Assembly (NCBI GenBank): GCA_022827025.1
Contig: JAJDTT010000278.1
Location: 1 to 64,000, forward strand
Reading direction: 5' to 3'
DNA: 64,000 bases
Origin: Acidobacteriota bacterium
GTDB lineage: Bacteria > Acidobacteriota > UBA6911 > RPQK01 > JAJDTT01
Shown here: piece by piece, positions 33,332 to 43,197 of the stretch
Position numbering within the stretch: position 1 is the first letter of the stretch
Layout of the letters: the number at the start of each line of letters is the position of its first letter
The notes under the pieces: generated by a model
The model's database searches: none
What the model saw: only the letters and a program-made list of their open reading frames with translations
Told to the model about the DNA's origin: nothing
Translations under genes and position numbers: made by a program

Positions 33332-33607
33332 TTACTTTTCCTCTCCGAACCGGTTCCTGACCAGAGTCTCCATCGCCTCGGCCGCCTCGATCTCGTCGGA
33401 CCCGCGAACCGTGAATTCCAGCTCGGTTCCGCAAGAGGCGGCCAACAGGAGAATGCCCAGGATGCTCTTGCCGTCGATCTCCTGCGACCCGCCGACCCTT
33501 GAGAGCTTGACGTCGCTGTCAAAACGGGACGCCGTCCTGACCAGCTTCGCCGCCGCGCGGGCGTGCAGCCCCAGGCGATTCCGGATCCGCACGACCCGCC
33601 GGATCAT
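33332..33607 (-). CDS. ptsH: Phosphocarrier protein HPr
   Basis: 91 residues. The active-site His15 is in NRLGLHARAAAKLV. The regulatory Ser (Ser48) is in DGKSILGILLLAAS, matching the HPr kinase target site. Both sites are intact, so it can be phosphorylated by Enzyme I and by the HprK encoded two genes upstream. Its ATG overlaps the EIIA stop (ATGA), which implies coupled translation. Confidence 0.97.
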   Translation of the reverse strand: MIRRVVRIRNRLGLHARAAAKLVRTASRFDSDVKLSRVGGSQEIDGKSILGILLLAASCGTELEFTVRGSDEIEAAEAMETLVRNRFGEEK

Positions 33608-34032
33608 TCCCCCAGCAACCCGCTGGCCAGCGCGATGTGTTTCTGCCCCTGTTCCAGGACCCGTTGCGCGAGTTCGCTCACGTCCTCCCTGCCCGTCTGG
33701 TTGGCCAGCTTGATGATCATGGGGAGGTTCACTCCGGTGACGATTTCCACCTCTCCCTTCTTCAACAGGGCGAGAGTCAAATTGGACGGCGTCCCTCCGA
33801 ACATGTCGGTCAGGATGATAACGCCGCCGCCCCGGTCGAGGGTGCTGATGGCCTCTTCGATCCCCTGCCGGGACCGGTCCACGTCGTCATGCCACCCGAT
33901 GGAGACCGGCAGTACGTGGGGGATCGCACCGACGATCATCTCGGCGGCGGCGACCAGCTCATGGCCCAGTCTCCCGTGAGTGACGACCAGTCCTCCGATT
34001 CGGTTCCGTTCCGTTTCATTCATTGTCGCCAT
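33604..34032 (-). CDS. PTS EIIA component, mannose family
   Basis: 142 residues from ATG 34032, or 139 from ATG 34023. GLVVTHGRLGHELVAAAEMI holds the phospho-His (His19), and ILTDMFGGTPSNLTLALL is the signature of the mannose-type EIIA fold. No EIIB, EIIC or EIID partner is present in the window. In similar clusters of diderm bacteria this EIIA is thought to be a regulator rather than a transporter part. It overlaps hprK and HPr at its two ends. Confidence 0.95.
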   Translation of the reverse strand: MATMNETERNRIGGLVVTHGRLGHELVAAAEMIVGAIPHVLPVSIGWHDDVDRSRQGIEEAISTLDRGGGVIILTDMFGGTPSNLTLALLKKGEVEIVTGVNLPMIIKLANQTGREDVSELAQRVLEQGQKHIALASGLLGE

Positions 34033-35008
34033 CCCCCGCCCGGGGTTGTTCTCCTCGACCCCACGGTACTTGGATCCTGCGTTCCAGGAGGCGAATCGAC
34101 TCCAGCGCGGGATTATATCCCTGCATCTTCAATTTCTGGACTCTGACGGCCACCTCCACCAGGGTCGCCAGGGTTCGTCCAGGCGCCACCGGAATCGTGA
34201 TCAACGGAAGGTCCACTCCCAGGACGCGATATTTCTCTTCCTCCAGTCCCAAACGGTCCCGCGTATCCCGTTCCGGCCATTTCTCCAGCTTGATCACCAG
34301 ATCGACGGGCCGGGCGGGGCTCAGCACGGAGATCCCGAACAGATCCCTGACGTTGATGATGCCCAACCCCCGCAGTTCCATGTGAAAGGGCGCATCGGGA
34401 GGACCGGACCCCACCAGGCTGTCGCCGGAAACCTTCTTCAATACGACCAGATCGTCGCTGACCAGACGGTGGCCCCTCAGGATCAGGTCCAGAGCGCACT
34501 CGCTCTTGCCGATACCCGATTCCCCCACCAGCAGGACCCCGAGCCCCAAGAGCTCCACCAGGACGCCATGGATGGTCCGGGTGAGGGCCAGATGTTCCTG
34601 CAGACTGGCCGTGACCTCGACGATGGCCCGGGAGCTGAGCGCCGTCGTCGTGAGTACCGGAGTCGAGGCCTTCTCCGCCTCGGCCAGAAAATCGGGCGGC
34701 GGCGCCAATCCGGTCGTCACCAGGATGCAACAGAGTCCGACGTCGAAGGAGTCGGAGAAAACCTTCCGGCGACGCTCCGGCGACAACTCCTCCATGTAGT
34801 AGGTCTCGGTGCGGCCCACGAACTGCACCCGTCCCCGGTGCAGGTAACGCGTGTATCCCGAAAGGGCCAGGCCCAACTTCTGGATTCTGGGAGAGGTGAT
34901 GGAGTTGTCCAGACCGGCGCCGCTGGAGGCGAGCGCCAGGTTCAGGGCCGGGTCCATGGACTCGTAGAACTGTCGAACGGTCACCGAGGGAATGGAATGA
35001 TTCTGCAT
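34016..35008 (-). CDS. hprK: HPr kinase/phosphorylase
   Basis: 330 residues. Walker A is GESGIGKSE (162-170), followed by a DDLVVLKK block and the HPrK signature GLGIINVRDLFGISVL. The N-terminal domain is of the usual length. It phosphorylates and dephosphorylates Ser48 of HPr. It sits between rpoN and EIIA-Man, an arrangement shared with many Gram-negative bacteria in which it couples carbon or nitrogen status to the PTS. Confidence 0.97.
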   Translation of the reverse strand: MQNHSIPSVTVRQFYESMDPALNLALASSGAGLDNSITSPRIQKLGLALSGYTRYLHRGRVQFVGRTETYYMEELSPERRRKVFSDSFDVGLCCILVTTGLAPPPDFLAEAEKASTPVLTTTALSSRAIVEVTASLQEHLALTRTIHGVLVELLGLGVLLVGESGIGKSECALDLILRGHRLVSDDLVVLKKVSGDSLVGSGPPDAPFHMELRGLGIINVRDLFGISVLSPARPVDLVIKLEKWPERDTRDRLGLEEEKYRVLGVDLPLITIPVAPGRTLATLVEVAVRVQKLKMQGYNPALESIRLLERRIQVPWGRGEQPRAGDGDNE

Positions 35009-35054: not shown

Positions 35055-36500
35055 CTACAACAGGTTCGCCTTTTTTCTGGCGAGCGACCCGGGGATTCTC
35101 ATCTGATCCCGGTACTTGGCGACGGTGCGGCGGGTGATACGGATCCCATCCCGGTTCAACAGGTTGGTGAGTTTCTGATCGGACAGGGGCTTCTTGGGGT
35201 CCTCGCGCCGGATCAGGTTTTTGAGCCGGTCCTTCACCTGCATGGTGGAGACGTTCTCTCCATTGGCGTGCCCCACCCCCACCGAGAAAAATCGGCGCAA
35301 CTGCATCACTCCCTGCGGGGTGTGAGCATACTTGTTGGCGACGACGCGGCTGATGGTGGACGGATGAACCCCCAGTTCATCGGCCACATCCTTGATCAGC
35401 AACGGCTTCAACTTCCGGATGCCCGATTCCATGAAATCGTGCTGGTGCCGGATGATGACGCGACAAACGCGAAAGATGGTCTCTTCCCGCTGATCCACCC
35501 CTCGCAGCAACTCGATGGCGGACCGGAATCGCTCGCGGATGAAGCTCTTGGTCTCCTTGGAGACGCCGTTCTTGCGAAGCAGCTTCCGGTAGGCAAGGTT
35601 GATTCTCAGCTTGGGCAGGCCATCGTCATTGAGGCTGACCTGGTACTCGCCTTCGACCTTTCGAATGTGCACGTCCGGCCGGACGTAAACCGGCTGGGAA
35701 GAGGCGTATTTCTGTCCCGGCCACGGCGAAAAGCCTCGAATCAACTCGAGGGCGCCGGACAGATCCTTCGGATCGCATGCCAGGCGATTCAAAATGGTGG
35801 AGTATTTTCTGCCTTCGATCAACGGCAGGCAGTCCCGAATCAGTGCGCCGACCAGAGAGTCCTCCAGACCCGCGGCCCTCGCCTGCAGCAAGAGGCATTC
35901 GCGCAGGTCCCGGCACGCGACGCCCACCGGGTCGAGGGCCTGAACCGCCGCCAGAGCGGCGTCGACGCTTTCGGAAGGAACCTGCAACTGCTGGCGGACC
36001 TCCTCCGGGGGCAGGGTCAGGTAGCCGTCCTCGTCCAGATTTCCCACGATGAAATAGGCGATCTCCCGCAGGTCCGAATCGATCCCGCTCAGGTTCAACT
36101 GCCAGTTCAGGTAATCCCACAAGGAGTTGGCGGAGGAGAGAAACTGCTCGAATGTAGCCTTCTGTTCCACCGGTTCGAATTCCTGGCGCTCGTAACTCGA
36201 TCCCAGGTAGTCTCCGAAGAAGTATTCGTAGTCCAGGTCCTCCAGATGGCTACCTTCCTCCGGCGGATCCGCGTCCTGCTCCGATTCCCGGGACGACTCC
36301 GAAACTTCCGGTCCGGTTTCGAAATGATCCGAGACCTCGTCCAGCAAGGGGTTCTCCTCCAGCTCCTGCTGGAGGATCTCCGAGAGTTCCAACTGGTTGA
36401 CGGAGAGGAGCTCGATCTTCTGGAGGAGCGAGGGGGTGATGGTCAGCCGTTGCGACAGGCCGAGCACCAGGGAGGGTTTCAATTGAGCGCGTCGACTCAT
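35055..36500 (-). CDS. rpoN: RNA polymerase sigma-54 factor
   Basis: 481 residues. Region I (LSQRLTITPSLLQKIELLSVNQLELSEILQQELEENPLL) is glutamine- and leucine-rich and contacts activators. An acidic region II (residues about 60-110) follows, then the core-binding domain and a helix-turn-helix (VADELGVHPSTISRVVANKYA). The RpoN box appears as TRRTVAKYRDQM near the C-terminus. It directs transcription from -24/-12 promoters with AAA activators, none of which is encoded here. The hpf/raiA gene often found downstream of rpoN is missing; hprK follows instead. Confidence 0.97.
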   Translation of the reverse strand: MSRRAQLKPSLVLGLSQRLTITPSLLQKIELLSVNQLELSEILQQELEENPLLDEVSDHFETGPEVSESSRESEQDADPPEEGSHLEDLDYEYFFGDYLGSSYERQEFEPVEQKATFEQFLSSANSLWDYLNWQLNLSGIDSDLREIAYFIVGNLDEDGYLTLPPEEVRQQLQVPSESVDAALAAVQALDPVGVACRDLRECLLLQARAAGLEDSLVGALIRDCLPLIEGRKYSTILNRLACDPKDLSGALELIRGFSPWPGQKYASSQPVYVRPDVHIRKVEGEYQVSLNDDGLPKLRINLAYRKLLRKNGVSKETKSFIRERFRSAIELLRGVDQREETIFRVCRVIIRHQHDFMESGIRKLKPLLIKDVADELGVHPSTISRVVANKYAHTPQGVMQLRRFFSVGVGHANGENVSTMQVKDRLKNLIRREDPKKPLSDQKLTNLLNRDGIRITRRTVAKYRDQMRIPGSLARKKANLL

Positions 36501-36705: not shown

Positions 36706-37452
36706 TCAGTATAGCTGGAAGTGGTCTCCCAGGTAAACTTTGCGGACGTCCGGATCGGCGGAGAGCAGGTCCGGGGTGCCGGATCGAAAGATCCTTCCTT
36801 CGGTGATGATGTAGGCCCGATCGGTGATGCGAAGAGTCTCGCGAACGTTGTGATCGGTGATCAGCACGCCTATTCTCCGCGCCTGGAGCCGGGTGACCAT
36901 GCGTTGGATATCCAAGACGGCAATGGGATCGATTCCGGCGAAGGGCTCGTCCAACAGGATGAAGTCGGGCCGGATGACCAGCGCGCGTGCGATCTCCAGA
37001 CGCCGTCTCTCGCCGCCTGAGAGGGTGTAGGCGGGACGGTCCCTCAGGGCCGCGATCCCGAATTCCTCCAACAGCTCGCTGACCAACTGGTCCGATTCCC
37101 CGTGGGGGAGATCCAGGGTCTCGGCGATGGCGTACAGGTTGTCCTCCACCGAAAGCCGGCGAAACACGGAGGGTTCCTGGGAGAGATAGCTGATCCCTCT
37201 TCGCGCCCGAACGTACATGGGAAGGGGAGTAATGTCCTCCCCGTCCAGGAAGACCGCGCCCCGGTCCGGGTCCAGCAGACCCACGATCATGTAGAAGGTG
37301 GTGGTCTTTCCGGCGCCGTTGGGACCCAGCAGGCCCACCACCTCGCCCGATGAGATGGTGAGGCTCACGTCGCCGACCACCTGCCTGCTCCGATACGATT
37401 TGCAGAGGCTCCGCGCCTCGAGAACCTTCTCCAGAACGCCCTCCCCGGTCAT
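36706..37452 (-). CDS. lptB: LPS export ABC transporter ATP-binding protein
   Basis: 248 residues. Walker [20 protein letters not shown]; signature [15 protein letters not shown]; Walker [16 protein letters not shown]; switch His in [10 protein letters not shown]. The [20 protein letters not shown] and RIFRSGTP blocks identify LptB rather than other ABC ATPases. It powers LPS movement from the inner membrane through LptC, LptA and LptD. It is placed between the LptC/A-like fusion and rpoN as in Proteobacteria. The 205-base gap 36501-36705 holds nothing recognised. Confidence 0.96.
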
Positions 37453-37623: not shown

Positions 37624-39957
37624 CTAATCGACCACGATCTTGTCGGTTTCCACGAACAGCGTCACTCTGCGTCCGGACGCGCTGCCGCGAAGCGGCTCCA
37701 CCACCTCGGCGAGCTCCCCGGTCAGCTCCACGCGGCCCTCCCGGGGATGATACACCGCCTGCTCTCCCCTGGCCCATCGATCCCCTTGCCGGATCTCGAC
37801 CTCGCCTCCCGCGGCAATGCTCCGAATGGTGCTCGAAGGGGAATCCTCCAGCAAGAAGTCCAAATGGGAGGATTTCACCTGGAAGTCGCCGGACTGCATC
37901 CGCACGCCGCCGCGGTACTCCGCCCTTCCCGAGCTCCTCTGATAGACGAGCTCTGGCGCGCGGATCCGGCACTTGCGGTCCGGCACTCCCCCAGGCTCCC
38001 AAAAGGTGCTGTCCACGTCCTGAACTTCCAACCGTTCACCGGCGGAGTCCAGGCGAATCATCGTTCCCGCAATCAGGTGGGATTCCCGGACGATCCGCGG
38101 ATTGCCGGCATAGGAAAGCGATTTGACACCGGAATCGAACACCAGATGATCCGCCTGGACCAGGACCGGTTCTTTCCCGGGACGACTGAAGAGGGTCCGG
38201 ACTCTCCCGGCCGCCGACAGTTCTCCCCGGTCCGGATCCATCCGGAACCGGTCCGCCCGGGTCCGCGACTCCACCGCACCCGCGCCTTCCGTCATGCCTT
38301 CGGAGTAGTACAGGTGGGCGCCTTCCGGGTCCGTAAAGGAGAACAGGTTCGGTCCGGCGTCATACTCCGCGTTGTTCGCCGTCAGCCTGACGCGCCCGGA
38401 GGGGCCCTCTTCCCGGTAGACCACCTGGCCCTGACCCCGGGCTTCCTGGAGTTGCCGGCCGGAGAATCCAAGTTCGAGCCGCCCGCTTTTCCCGTCCCGC
38501 TTCCTGGTTTCCGAGTTCATGGCCCAACGGACGTTTCCCACCGCCGCAACGCTCAGCACGCCCCCTTCCTTGAAGACTGCCTCCATGCGTTCCGACTCCA
38601 CTGTCCGTTCCCCTTCGGGAACCTGCTGGCGCAGAACCGGGTCTTGCGTGGCCACGAGCCTCTTCAGTGTCCCATCCCGGTAGAACGCGTCCATTCGTCC
38701 TGCTCGAAGACGGGCCGAAGCCCCGTCTCCGGTTCGGGACCAGGCCACGGTGTTCCCGGTAACGGTCGCGTGATCCAGGACTCCGTCAGCGCCAAGATCC
38801 AGAACCAGCAGATCCCCCTGAATGGACTCGCGAGAATCATCGAGCTCTCGAAGCCGCCCGACCAGTGTCGTATTTCCCTTCATCTCCAACCACTTGAGAC
38901 GCTGATTCTCAAGACTCAGGTGAGCTTCCAAGAGGTCGGCCCGCCCTTCTTCCAGACCCAGAGGCCGGGAACGGACAACGACACGCCGGTGTGCCAGAAG
39001 CCGAGTCTCATTCGCACCCGAAGCCCCGGCCAACCCGTCGATGCGATCCGCTTCCAGGTAGGTCTCGGGGTCTTCGTACACCGCGCGTTGTTCAGGAGAA
39101 TCGGGAGCGGCTTTGCCCGAGTAGACGTAGAAGCGCTCGATCCTCCCCTCATCGGAAGCCGCAAACAGATGGATGGACTCACCGGTGAAGGCCCGGTCCG
39201 AATCCAGGGCCAGCCGAACGCCACGCGAGGTGAACATCCGCTCCACGGCCCGGTCTTCGGTCAGAAAGACACGGACGTACCCGGCGGTCAACTCTCCCTG
39301 GGGACCTTGAATGCGGGCCCCGTCCAACAGATCGACCCTGCGATCCTCCGGATCGTACAAAGCCCTCGACGCCTTGACCTGGAGCCGATCGTCGCCTTGC
39401 GCGATGTTCAACTCGAACTCTTCATCCACCCGGAGGTGGTTCCGCCGGATCTCGTAGCTGAGAGACCGGCCGTGACCGGAGATCTTCTCCATGCCGAAGC
39501 GGAATCCCTCCTCGATGGCCACCACATTACGGGCCAGGTCGGCCTTCAGACGATCCGCTTCGATGGTGGTTCCATCCGAAAGCTCGATGCGCACGTTTCC
39601 GGTGAACTCGATCCGGTTATCGACCATCCGGTAGATCGCTTCGTCTCCCGAGATCTCCTCGGCGGCGCTTCCGTCCGGACCGAAGTGAGTCAGTTTCACG
39701 CCGAAAAGACGCAGGATTTTCTTGACTGTCTCGGTGCTGGTCCCGGCCTCCACCTTGTAGTCCGTTCGCCCTTCCTCGTGGTGGGTATGCTCGAATCCGG
39801 TGGTCTGCTGCCGCACCTCGGGAGAGAGGAGGCGTTCCCGCACCAGGGGCGGCCTGGCGTCCCGCCTGGTCAGGAAACTCCAGACCACGGCTCCCATGGC
39901 CGTCACCAGGACCACGATCAGAACCAGCCGGATGAGCTTGAGGGAACGGGGACGCAT
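37624..39957 (-). CDS. LptC/LptA-like fusion protein (LPS transport), very long
   Basis: 777 residues; LptC is normally about 190 and LptA about 185. One N-terminal membrane helix (LIRLVLIVVLVTAMGAVVWSF, residues 8-28) anchors the protein, and the next roughly 180 residues have the LptC-like pattern (KKILRLFGVKLTHFGPDG, DEAIYRMVDNRIEFTGNV). From about residue 110 on, OstA/LptA-type strands repeat many times (ADRLKADLA, LQVKASRALYD, VQADHLVFDSG, VKSSHLDFLLED, EVEIRQGDRWARGEQAVYH). The domain could form a continuous periplasmic slide for LPS. It is placed between recJ and lptB, where lptC and lptA normally sit, and no separate lptA is seen. Confidence 0.75.
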   Translation of the reverse strand: MRPRSLKLIRLVLIVVLVTAMGAVVWSFLTRRDARPPLVRERLLSPEVRQQTTGFEHTHHEEGRTDYKVEAGTSTETVKKILRLFGVKLTHFGPDGSAAEEISGDEAIYRMVDNRIEFTGNVRIELSDGTTIEADRLKADLARNVVAIEEGFRFGMEKISGHGRSLSYEIRRNHLRVDEEFELNIAQGDDRLQVKASRALYDPEDRRVDLLDGARIQGPQGELTAGYVRVFLTEDRAVERMFTSRGVRLALDSDRAFTGESIHLFAASDEGRIERFYVYSGKAAPDSPEQRAVYEDPETYLEADRIDGLAGASGANETRLLAHRRVVVRSRPLGLEEGRADLLEAHLSLENQRLKWLEMKGNTTLVGRLRELDDSRESIQGDLLVLDLGADGVLDHATVTGNTVAWSRTGDGASARLRAGRMDAFYRDGTLKRLVATQDPVLRQQVPEGERTVESERMEAVFKEGGVLSVAAVGNVRWAMNSETRKRDGKSGRLELGFSGRQLQEARGQGQVVYREEGPSGRVRLTANNAEYDAGPNLFSFTDPEGAHLYYSEGMTEGAGAVESRTRADRFRMDPDRGELSAAGRVRTLFSRPGKEPVLVQADHLVFDSGVKSLSYAGNPRIVRESHLIAGTMIRLDSAGERLEVQDVDSTFWEPGGVPDRKCRIRAPELVYQRSSGRAEYRGGVRMQSGDFQVKSSHLDFLLEDSPSSTIRSIAAGGEVEIRQGDRWARGEQAVYHPREGRVELTGELAEVVEPLRGSASGRRVTLFVETDKIVVD

Positions 39958-40162: not shown

Positions 40163-41887
40163 TCAGGAATCGGTCGAGATCGGGTGCGTGCGCAGATCCC
40201 GGACCGTCATGAGCAGACTCTCCACGCCCCGGTACTCGTTCCGGTTCAAGGTGTACGCCACATCGATCTTCGATCCTGCCGATATGGTATCAGCGGCATC
40301 CCCGTTCTTCCACCAGATGGCGTCGACGCCGGTTCCGTTGGCGCCGATACGGACCTTCAGATGCCTGTTCTTCAATACCCATGGACCGCCGGTCACATCC
40401 AACCCGCGGCTGGCGAAGACGGGAACCGGATTCCCTACCCCGAATGGCGCCAGATGCTGAATCTCCCGGTACAGCGACAACGAAAGGTGGCCCGGCCTCA
40501 GATACGAGTCCAATGGGACCAGGGGTGTCAGTTCCTCCGCTGACAGCACGGACCGGGCGTGGGAATCGAGTCGATCCGAGAGGGTCCGGAGGCGGTCCTC
40601 CAGGGAATCGCTTCCCTCCATGGCGCAACCCACCGCCTGAGCATGCCCGCCAAATCGATCCAGGAGGTCGCCGCACGCCTCCAATGCCTCCAGCAGGTGA
40701 AAGCCGGGTATGCTTCTCCCCGAACCCTGGCAGTCGGATTCCCCGACCGAGAACACCAGCGTGGGGCGGAAGAAACGCCGGGCCACCCTCGAGGCGATGA
40801 TCCCGATCACCCCCCGGTGCCAGTCTCTCCCAGCCAGGACGATGAAGGTCTTCCGGAACAGTTCCGGGCGGCTCTCCTCCCACTCGCGGATCTCCGCCAG
40901 GATGGCCTCTTCCTCCCGCCGGCGTTCCCGGTTCTTCGTATTCATGTCCCGGACGATCGCCTGGGCCCGCGACCTGTCCTGGGTATCGAAGAGATCCAGG
41001 ACCTCCGGTCCGCCCCCCATTCGGGTCACCGCATTGATGCGGGGAGCGATCCTGAAGGCCACGTCGTCCAGCTCCACCTGCCCCGAGACTCCGGCGCCGT
41101 CGAGCAGGGCCCGCAGGCCTACGTTGTGCGGTTGGGCCAGACCCTCCAACCCCAGCTTGACCAGGACCCGGTTCTCCCCGGTCAGGGGGACCATGTCGGC
41201 CGCGGTTCCCAAGGCCACGACTTTCAGAAAATGGGGAAGCACCCGCGTGCGCCGGGCTTTTTCGAAGAGTCCCTGCACCAGCTTGAAAACGACGCCTGCC
41301 GCCGACAGGTTCCGGTCCGGGTAGTGGCAGTCCTCACGGTGCGGATTGAGGATGGCTCGCGCCGGAGGAAGTTCCGCGGAAGGCAGATGATGATCGCAGA
41401 TCAGAACGTCGAGGCCCAACTCGCGCGCCCGGCCGCAAGCCTCGAAGGCGCGAATTCCGCAGTCCGAGGTCACCAGCAACCCCACCCCGTCCCGGTGGCA
41501 CCGTTCCACGAACCTGGTTTGAATTCCATATCCGTCCTTGAGCCGCCGGGGGATATGGATGTCGACGCGGCCCCCCAGCATCTCCAGAGCGCGTTTCAGG
41601 ATCAGGCTCGAGGTGATGCCGTCCACGTCGTAGTCTCCGTGGACCATGATCCGCTGCTTCTCCTCCAGGGCCTTCCGGACGAGCGGGACCGCCCGGTCCA
41701 TGTCCTTCATCAGAAAGGGGTCGTGGAGATTCTCAAAGCGGGGATGGAGAAAAAGGTGGGCCTCCTCCGGGTCCCGGATGCCGCGGTTGACCAGCAGGCG
41801 AGCCGTCAGCGACGAAACGTCCAGCTCGGAGGCCAGCGTCCGAACCGCCTCCGCCTCCGGCTCCCGCAGCGTCCACCTGCGCCTCAT
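40163..41887 (-). CDS. recJ: Single-stranded-DNA-specific exonuclease RecJ
   Basis: 574 residues. DHH phosphoesterase motifs: MVHGDYDVDGITSSLI, LLVTSDCGIRAF, LICDHHLPS and a DHHA1-type segment with GSGRSIPGFHLLEAL and FGGHAQAVGCAM. A C-terminal OB-like domain follows (LRPGHLSLSLYREIQHLAPFG). It degrades 5' single-stranded DNA in recombination and mismatch repair. It begins the long minus-strand run; a + strand gene starts 69 bases away, so this is a divergent promoter region. Confidence 0.95.
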   Translation of the reverse strand: MRRRWTLREPEAEAVRTLASELDVSSLTARLLVNRGIRDPEEAHLFLHPRFENLHDPFLMKDMDRAVPLVRKALEEKQRIMVHGDYDVDGITSSLILKRALEMLGGRVDIHIPRRLKDGYGIQTRFVERCHRDGVGLLVTSDCGIRAFEACGRARELGLDVLICDHHLPSAELPPARAILNPHREDCHYPDRNLSAAGVVFKLVQGLFEKARRTRVLPHFLKVVALGTAADMVPLTGENRVLVKLGLEGLAQPHNVGLRALLDGAGVSGQVELDDVAFRIAPRINAVTRMGGGPEVLDLFDTQDRSRAQAIVRDMNTKNRERRREEEAILAEIREWEESRPELFRKTFIVLAGRDWHRGVIGIIASRVARRFFRPTLVFSVGESDCQGSGRSIPGFHLLEALEACGDLLDRFGGHAQAVGCAMEGSDSLEDRLRTLSDRLDSHARSVLSAEELTPLVPLDSYLRPGHLSLSLYREIQHLAPFGVGNPVPVFASRGLDVTGGPWVLKNRHLKVRIGANGTGVDAIWWKNGDAADTISAGSKIDVAYTLNRNEYRGVESLLMTVRDLRTHPISTDS

Positions 41888-41955: not shown

Positions 41956-43197
41956 ATGCTTTCTCCGAGTGCCTTGACCGGCGGGCGCAGCCCAGTCTCG
42001 GTGCTACGTGGGACTTCCATCACGTACGGTGAGGCAGGACACGAATTGCGGAGTCGACTCCTTCTCCTGGCATTGATCTTCTTCGGCCTTCTGGCCGTCC
42101 TGATTCTTCTCGCGACCGAATTCTGGCTTCGATATTCTTTTCTCGGGGAATCCGAGGAACCTCGCGATCACGCCGAGGAATCCTGGTACCTGCCGGTTCG
42201 TATCAAGGGAGACTACGAGGGCGTCTTCTGGGACATCCCCTTCGTCACCAACGCCTACGGTTTCCGGGACGAACCGCCGTTGGACCCCGTTCCCCCGGAG
42301 GGCGAATTCCGAATCCTCTCGCTGGGAGACTCTATCGGGTTCGGCCTCGGAGTCGCGTCGCAGGACCGGTACGCACAAGTTCTGCAGCGGGAACTCAATC
42401 ATTCGCCGGGAGCCTACCGCTTCCGTGTCGTCAACGCTTCGGGGCAAGGCTACAGCCCCTCCAGCTACGCAGCCTACATCTACCAGGAAGGTCTCAAGCT
42501 GAACCCCGATCTGGTATTGGTGCAAATCGAACTTTGCAACGACGTCACCGACGAGGCTCTGCTCGGCTGGCCGTCCGGGGTCCAAGCGAGCCTGCCGGAA
42601 TCGGTCCGGGGGGGCCGGTACGTGGTGGGTTGGGACGGCCAGCTTCTGGGGACTTGGTCCCGAGGACCTTATTTCTTTGAAAAGACTTATACTTACACGG
42701 TCCTAATTCGCAAATTACTTGAATCTTTGCACCGGATCAGTCCCACCGAGCCGTTCCGCAGTACCCGGGGGCTGACCTACTACGCCATGGGTTACGAGAA
42801 GTTTCTCCTGGACCGGGAACGGATCGACGCCGGTTGGACAAGGCTCTTCGGGGCGTTGGGAGGAATCCGGGATCTTCTTGAGCGAGAGCGGATTCCGTTT
42901 CTACTCCTGTTGATTCCCTCCCGCTTCGTGTTCCGGAAAGAGGCTCCGGAGCATGCGCTCTTTGCCCGGGAACTGATGGATCGAGCCATCGAACAATGCC
43001 GATCCCGGCAGATTCCGTATCTCGATCCATCCCGCGATCTGCGGCAGGCCGGCGGCCCGGAACTCTATTTCGACTTCGCTCATCTCACCGGCGAGGGAAA
43101 CCGTGTCACGGGACGGGCTCTGGCCCGGGAAATCCGGCGGCGATACCTCGGCGCCGGGGGAACGACCCCCGCCGGCGGCCGGCAATCCATCGACTGA
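41956..43197 (+). CDS. Membrane-anchored SGNH/GDSL-type hydrolase
   Basis: 413 residues if ATG 41956 is used; GTG 42001 (398 residues) is equally plausible because neither has a good ribosome site. One membrane helix at about residues 33-55 (LLLLALIFFGLLAVLILLAT) follows the start. Block I is ILSLGDSIGFGLGV with the nucleophile Ser; NASGQGYSP supplies the block II Gly; VQIELCNDV the block III Asn; DFAHLTGEGN the C-terminal Asp-His pair. All catalytic blocks are therefore present. It is a likely periplasmic esterase or acetyl-transfer-related protein acting on a polysaccharide. It is the only + strand gene in this 37 kb segment. Confidence 0.75.
   Translation: MLSPSALTGGRSPVSVLRGTSITYGEAGHELRSRLLLLALIFFGLLAVLILLATEFWLRYSFLGESEEPRDHAEESWYLPVRIKGDYEGVFWDIPFVTNAYGFRDEPPLDPVPPEGEFRILSLGDSIGFGLGVASQDRYAQVLQRELNHSPGAYRFRVVNASGQGYSPSSYAAYIYQEGLKLNPDLVLVQIELCNDVTDEALLGWPSGVQASLPESVRGGRYVVGWDGQLLGTWSRGPYFFEKTYTYTVLIRKLLESLHRISPTEPFRSTRGLTYYAMGYEKFLLDRERIDAGWTRLFGALGGIRDLLERERIPFLLLLIPSRFVFRKEAPEHALFARELMDRAIEQCRSRQIPYLDPSRDLRQAGGPELYFDFAHLTGEGNRVTGRALAREIRRRYLGAGGTTPAGGRQSID

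Follow-up and report, generated by a model that had tools for sequence, protein, structure and literature searches.

Where separate lptC and lptA genes are expected, directly upstream of lptB, the window analyzed here (the whole 64,000-nucleotide stretch of Acidobacteriota DNA) carries one long open reading frame. The locus raises the question of whether a single polypeptide can take the place of both proteins in the periplasmic bridge for lipopolysaccharide (LPS). The original prediction described an N-terminal anchor and LptC-like part that continue into a long series of OstA/LptA-like strands, and proposed that such a chain could span much of the periplasm and dispense with LptA oligomers.

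A fused lptC-lptA gene upstream of lptB

The frame was recovered exactly as predicted in its limits and length, on the minus strand with an ATG start at position 39957 (Table 1). Its predicted placement also held: lptB lies 171 nt downstream and is followed by rpoN, and the order lptC-lptA, lptB, rpoN matches the lptC-lptA-lptB-rpoN order of E. coli. After rpoN, genes for HPr kinase and for a PTS EIIA protein of the mannose type (33604–35008, minus strand) are found in the position that holds hpf and ptsN in E. coli. Upstream of recJ, an open reading frame on the opposite strand (41956–43197, plus strand) resembles GDSL/SGNH hydrolases, has an AlgX-like match, and is kept in congeners.

Table 1. 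Positions in the window of the fused gene, its parts, and the neighboring genes.
Feature	Position	Strand	Basis
rpoN (sigma-54)	35055..36500	-	Pfam; conserved neighbor as in E. coli
lptB, ATPase of the LPS exporter	36706..37452	-	TIGR04406, 355.5 bits (cut-off 240)
Fused lptC-lptA gene, 777 aa	37624..39957	-	Open reading frame; LptC and LptA/LptD_N profile matches; dN/dS
C-terminal LptA-like jellyroll, residues 561-777	37627..38277	-	TIGR03002; AlphaFold; Foldseek
Middle OstA-like repeats, residues 235-560	38278..39255	-	LptD_N in relatives; hhalign
LptA/LptD_N-like stretch 1, residues 101-234, which overlaps and extends the LptC domain	39256..39657	-	PF03968; TIGR03002
LptC domain, residues 11-148	39514..39927	-	TIGR04409; PF06835
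N-terminal transmembrane anchor, residues ~8-30	39868..39936	-	Hydropathy scan; helix 3-31 in AlphaFold model
recJ, upstream neighbor kept in many relatives	40163..41887	-	Pfam; synteny

Comparison of lptC-lptA with its congeners gave a dN/dS of 0.25–0.28, indicating that the gene is under purifying selection, and orthologues of the same length are present in two congeneric genomes (L036 and L008). Together these data exclude that the frame arose by chance or as a joint in the assembly.

Domain organization of the 777-residue chain

A hydropathy scan revealed a single strongly hydrophobic segment, the N-terminal anchor, both in this protein and in the majority of 31 relatives. In the window protein, the 19-residue mean hydropathy at residue 11 reached 2.65, and no value above 1.0 was found beyond residue 90. 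Because there is one N-terminal hydrophobic helix and no later hydrophobic segment, we consider the product to be an anchored periplasmic protein. The lack of an internal hydrophobic segment also led us to reject an internal start that would give rise to a separate exported LptA.

The protein is a fusion with LptC at its N-terminal end. Both LptC profiles passed their cut-offs, TIGR04409 with E=8.4e-11 and 41.3–41.7 bits (cut-off 38) over residues 11–147, and PF06835 with 29.8 bits (cut-off 21), and the N-terminal anchor of the family is present. LptC typically consists of the LptC domain only, at about 190 residues; here that domain is just the first part of 777 residues, and counted in residues (LptC has 191 in E. 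coli) the original estimate, about four LptC lengths, is right.

Homology to LptA is found toward both ends of the remaining chain. PF03968 (LptD_N, the LptA/OstA domain) matched two stretches with 60.5 bits (cut-off 20.4). The LptA equivalog profile TIGR03002 matched the whole protein with E=4.7e-16, at 58.9 bits, below its cut-off of 71.7, with the best stretch at residues 661–776; when the first LptA-like part was searched alone, the same profile gave E=2.9e-5. A phmmer search of the protein against PDB sequences returned nothing useful, and no AsmA/TamB Pfam family was found in the chain at E≤1.

Between these stretches lies the part that is most variable in length among relatives. In the window sequence itself no Pfam family matched residues 235–560, and LptD_N matched this middle segment in 9 of 22 relatives. 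Profile comparison within the family by hhalign demonstrated repeat homology: the N-terminal part matched the C-terminal part at 98.3%, the second half of the middle matched the C-terminal module at 97.4% and the first half at 90.1%, and the two middle halves matched each other at 97.9%, these matches lying in registers other than that of the roughly 20 residues the two halves share. Compared with E. coli LptA or LptC as single sequences, profiles of the middle gave no match, because the sequences are too divergent.

The structural model accounts for the C-terminal third of the chain. AlphaFold was run on the full-length protein with four near-identical rows as input and gave a mean pLDDT of 45.6, with residues 560–777 mostly at 70–87; the jellyroll of residues 30–180 was modelled at low confidence. 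A second job restricted to residues 225–600 gave a pLDDT of 41.1 for the middle and a model too poor to yield a fold match. The weakness outside the C-terminal third is due to the fact that only near-identical sequences were usable, and since its structural model was too poor, the middle was assigned by repeat homology. Foldseek matched the model, confident at residues 560–777, with a probability of 1.0 to LptH (4uu4), LptA (2r19/2r1a), LptC (4b54), the LptC of LptBFGC, and LptD. The check for a continuous jellyroll thus came out in part: the C-terminal end of the chain has the fold of LptH, LptA, LptC, and LptD, and the remainder was not confidently modelled. Of the predicted architecture, the anchor and LptC-like part were confirmed by hydropathy and by profiles above cut-off, and the long OstA/LptA-like series by profile comparison, with a fold in hand for residues 560–777 only. 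From the sequence, a continuous groove probably runs through the whole chain.

The length of the bridge can be estimated from the strand spacing in the well-modelled part, about 16 residues per strand. By this estimate the periplasmic part holds about 47 strands, equivalent to approximately three 16-strand jellyrolls and spanning 110–115 angstrom; the count is nearer to three jellyrolls than to four or five because the strands are long. For E. coli, whose periplasm was put at 21 nm, an assembly of one LptC, a single LptA, and the portions of LptF/G and LptD/E that lie in the periplasm was estimated to measure 16 nm (PMC5575297). With one more jellyroll than this set, the total would come close to 20 nm, by arithmetic on the E. 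coli values.

Lpt genes of the genome and of the Acidobacteriota

A canonical lptA elsewhere in the genome would have argued against the fusion taking the place of LptA, and none was found. In this draft genome (5.33 Mb, 98.8% complete) PF03968 matched the lptC-lptA frame alone, and TIGR03002 at E≤10 matched only the lptC-lptA and LptD frames; in principle, a gap in the draft could hide a small, separate lptA. LptD is encoded (P0006; PF04453 and LptD_2 above cut-off), as are LptE (38.4 bits, cut-off 23) and the lipid A gene lpxC. One 776-residue frame on another contig (C77, L005:445-2775, plus strand) codes for both LptF and LptG; its residues 4–358 match LptF (328 bits, cut-off 230) and residues 419–772 match LptG (313 bits, cut-off 240). 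The genome thus encodes all of LptB, LptF, LptG, LptC, LptA, LptD, and LptE, and because LptC-LptA and LptF-LptG are each fused, the seven functions reside on five genes.

The comparison of lengths across relatives that had been proposed revealed long LptC-LptA frames, usually of 600–880 aa, in nearly all sampled Acidobacteriota. A search for related loci returned two congeners only. Among the 40 nearest genomes, 36 contain a homologue, nearly all of them complete, the complete copies being single frames of about 750–890 aa. PF06835 matched in 148 of 247 sampled Acidobacteriota genomes. Taking the best LptC match in each of 137 genomes, with frames measured between stop codons and with a small number of weak PF06835 matches that may represent LptD or a different OstA protein, the median frame was 759 aa (5–95%, 600–881) and 134 frames were at least 545 aa. 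Among the three short frames is a split one (G026), the other half of which is found in a second frame. PF03968 matched in 187 of the 247 genomes, almost always in frames of at least 548 aa; the only short frame listed measures 246 aa. Among genomes that had no library match, lptB was sought in 16 and found in 12, and in nine of these the frame directly upstream of lptB encodes a long relative, between 491 and about 1000 aa in length (family HMM, E from 1e-7 to 1e-60). We compiled 31 complete fused proteins of 607–860 aa, most of which are adjoined by lptB and usually also by rpoN.

Several loci depart from the common arrangement. The shortest fused proteins, at 491 aa, belong to one family (f15; L122:2527-4002 and L123:1733-3208), in which lptB overlaps the fused gene by 4 nt; they form the short end of the length series. 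In several genomes of the divergent family f31 (L118:2511-5798, minus strand; also L117 and L119), a protein of 1090 aa with BNR/sortilin repeats and a signal-like N-terminus is encoded between lptB and the fused lptC-lptA gene, only part of which was read. One genome (G078; contigs C8 and C6, L113 and L116) holds two near-identical lptCA-lptB-rpoN copies with ambiguous bases, probably a mixture of strains. In another (G041; L124:1499-4235, minus strand), a gene for a second LptB-like ATPase directly follows a 683-aa frame, a possible second lipid exporter.

The LptF-LptG fusion is similarly widespread: PF03739 matched in 146 of 149 genomes, usually twice per frame of about 740–950 aa, f31 included. 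Because they are found in nearly all sampled Acidobacteriota, both fusions look like traits of the phylum, as judged from these frames. The original prediction missed the LptF-LptG fusion as well as the phylum-wide spread of LptC-LptA.

A probable single-chain bridge and its relation to known systems

We consider it highly probable that the frame encodes a single-chain LptC-LptA whose stacked OstA/LptA groove bridges to LptD. At the inner membrane, the N-terminal helix and LptC jellyroll would dock onto the LptB2-(LptF-LptG) exporter. From there, stacked OstA/LptA strands would build a single groove, equivalent in total to about three jellyrolls, and its final LptA-like jellyroll would deliver LPS to LptD at the N-terminal jellyroll of the latter. 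A separate LptC and a self-assembling chain of LptA would then be replaced by one polypeptide, fixed in length and in stoichiometry. A chain that spans much of the periplasm without LptA oligomers, as originally proposed, would fit all that we have seen, with the groove presumably passing through the middle and making oligomers unnecessary. The original prediction is borne out for the feature and, to the extent that sequence can show it, for the meaning given to the feature.

The estimated span bears on whether the fused protein could instead be LptC with a partial bridge, one that still oligomerizes head to tail or needs other adaptors to reach LptD. The 110–115 angstrom fall short of the 210 angstrom of an E. 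coli-type periplasm unless the jellyrolls of LptF/G and LptD supply the rest, and the relatives in f15 are shorter still, at just 491 aa. Adding the periplasmic parts of LptF/G and LptD does bring the total near 20 nm, starting from the 16 nm of PMC5575297, and the covalent LptC anchor would make head-to-tail chains awkward; we therefore regard a partial bridge as unlikely.

Less probable by far is that the chain carries a lipid other than LPS, or serves as a general bridge like TamB/AsmA, with LPS moved by other means. Groove-type beta bridges are common in envelope lipid transport, but the profiles that match are those of LptC, LptA, and LptD_N and not of an AsmA/TamB Pfam family, lptB adjoins the gene, and the genome has lptD, lptE, and lpxC and no other lptA. 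As to two genes having been joined through sequencing error in assembly or annotation, the genome is a draft, and in one congener (CATOST, G001; L037 near 6870) the fused gene falls into two frames at about residue 292, by a sequencing error in the metagenome-assembled genome or a recent break. Such an artefact has a negligible chance of being correct: single frames of the same length, free of internal stops, occur in independent genomes and many families, the dN/dS is that of a selected protein, and no signal sequence that could export an LptA lies within the chain. The intact frames of relatives and the dN/dS refute it.

Returning to the single-chain bridge, we suggest a broader and more tentative possibility, that Acidobacteriota use a consolidated Lpt machine. 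LptF-LptG and LptC-LptA would each be one chain, so that stoichiometry in the bridge would be fixed at 1:1 and its length set by the gene, with the variable middle of LptC-LptA (total length ~490–860 aa) perhaps serving as a molecular ruler for periplasm width or for the LptD partner. The consolidation itself is the wider finding, and the fused chain makes a variant of a known machine, not one of a new kind. In a survey from 2022, Acidobacteria were described as apparently lacking lptF and lptG (PMC8871954). The LptF-LptG fusion is a likely reason for this reported lack, and it touches a claim relevant to arguments on the origins of the outer membrane. No description of an LptC-LptA or LptF-LptG fusion was found in a text search of the open-access literature, subscription papers and preprints being outside its scope. 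Such fused proteins are surely listed in domain databases. A natural single-chain bridge fixes the number of LptA units by sequence, making stoichiometry, length, and direction directly testable. In Enterobacteriaceae, thanatin-type peptides disrupt the LptC-LptA and LptA-LptA joints, and a one-chain bridge would be without these targets.

The principle of the proposed bridge is similar to that of the AsmA-like proteins TamB, YhdP, and YdbH, which are anchored in the inner membrane and form a long beta groove; these differ in family and locus, and the chain has no Pfam match to them. The best solved matches of the C-terminal part, Pseudomonas LptH (4uu4) and E. coli LptA (2r19/2r1a) and LptC (4b54), are single modules at 10–15% sequence identity, in contrast to the fused series found here. 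In diderm Firmicutes a pair of separate OstA proteins, each about 200 aa long, has been proposed as LptA and LptC, beside lptB and a single LptF/G homologue (PMC5007114); the placement of OstA proteins next to lptB and the presence of LptF/G are alike, but one long chain and a tandem LptF-LptG are found here. E. coli encodes LptC (191 aa) and LptA (185 aa) in adjacent genes, and the likeness extends to the gene order, the anchor with its putative jellyroll, and an LptA-like last module. How many LptA copies make up the E. coli bridge is left open in PMC5575297, which also reports that stable oligomers are not strictly essential. Where E. coli uses two proteins, the Acidobacteriota window encodes one chain of 777 aa, the length of which is set by the gene.
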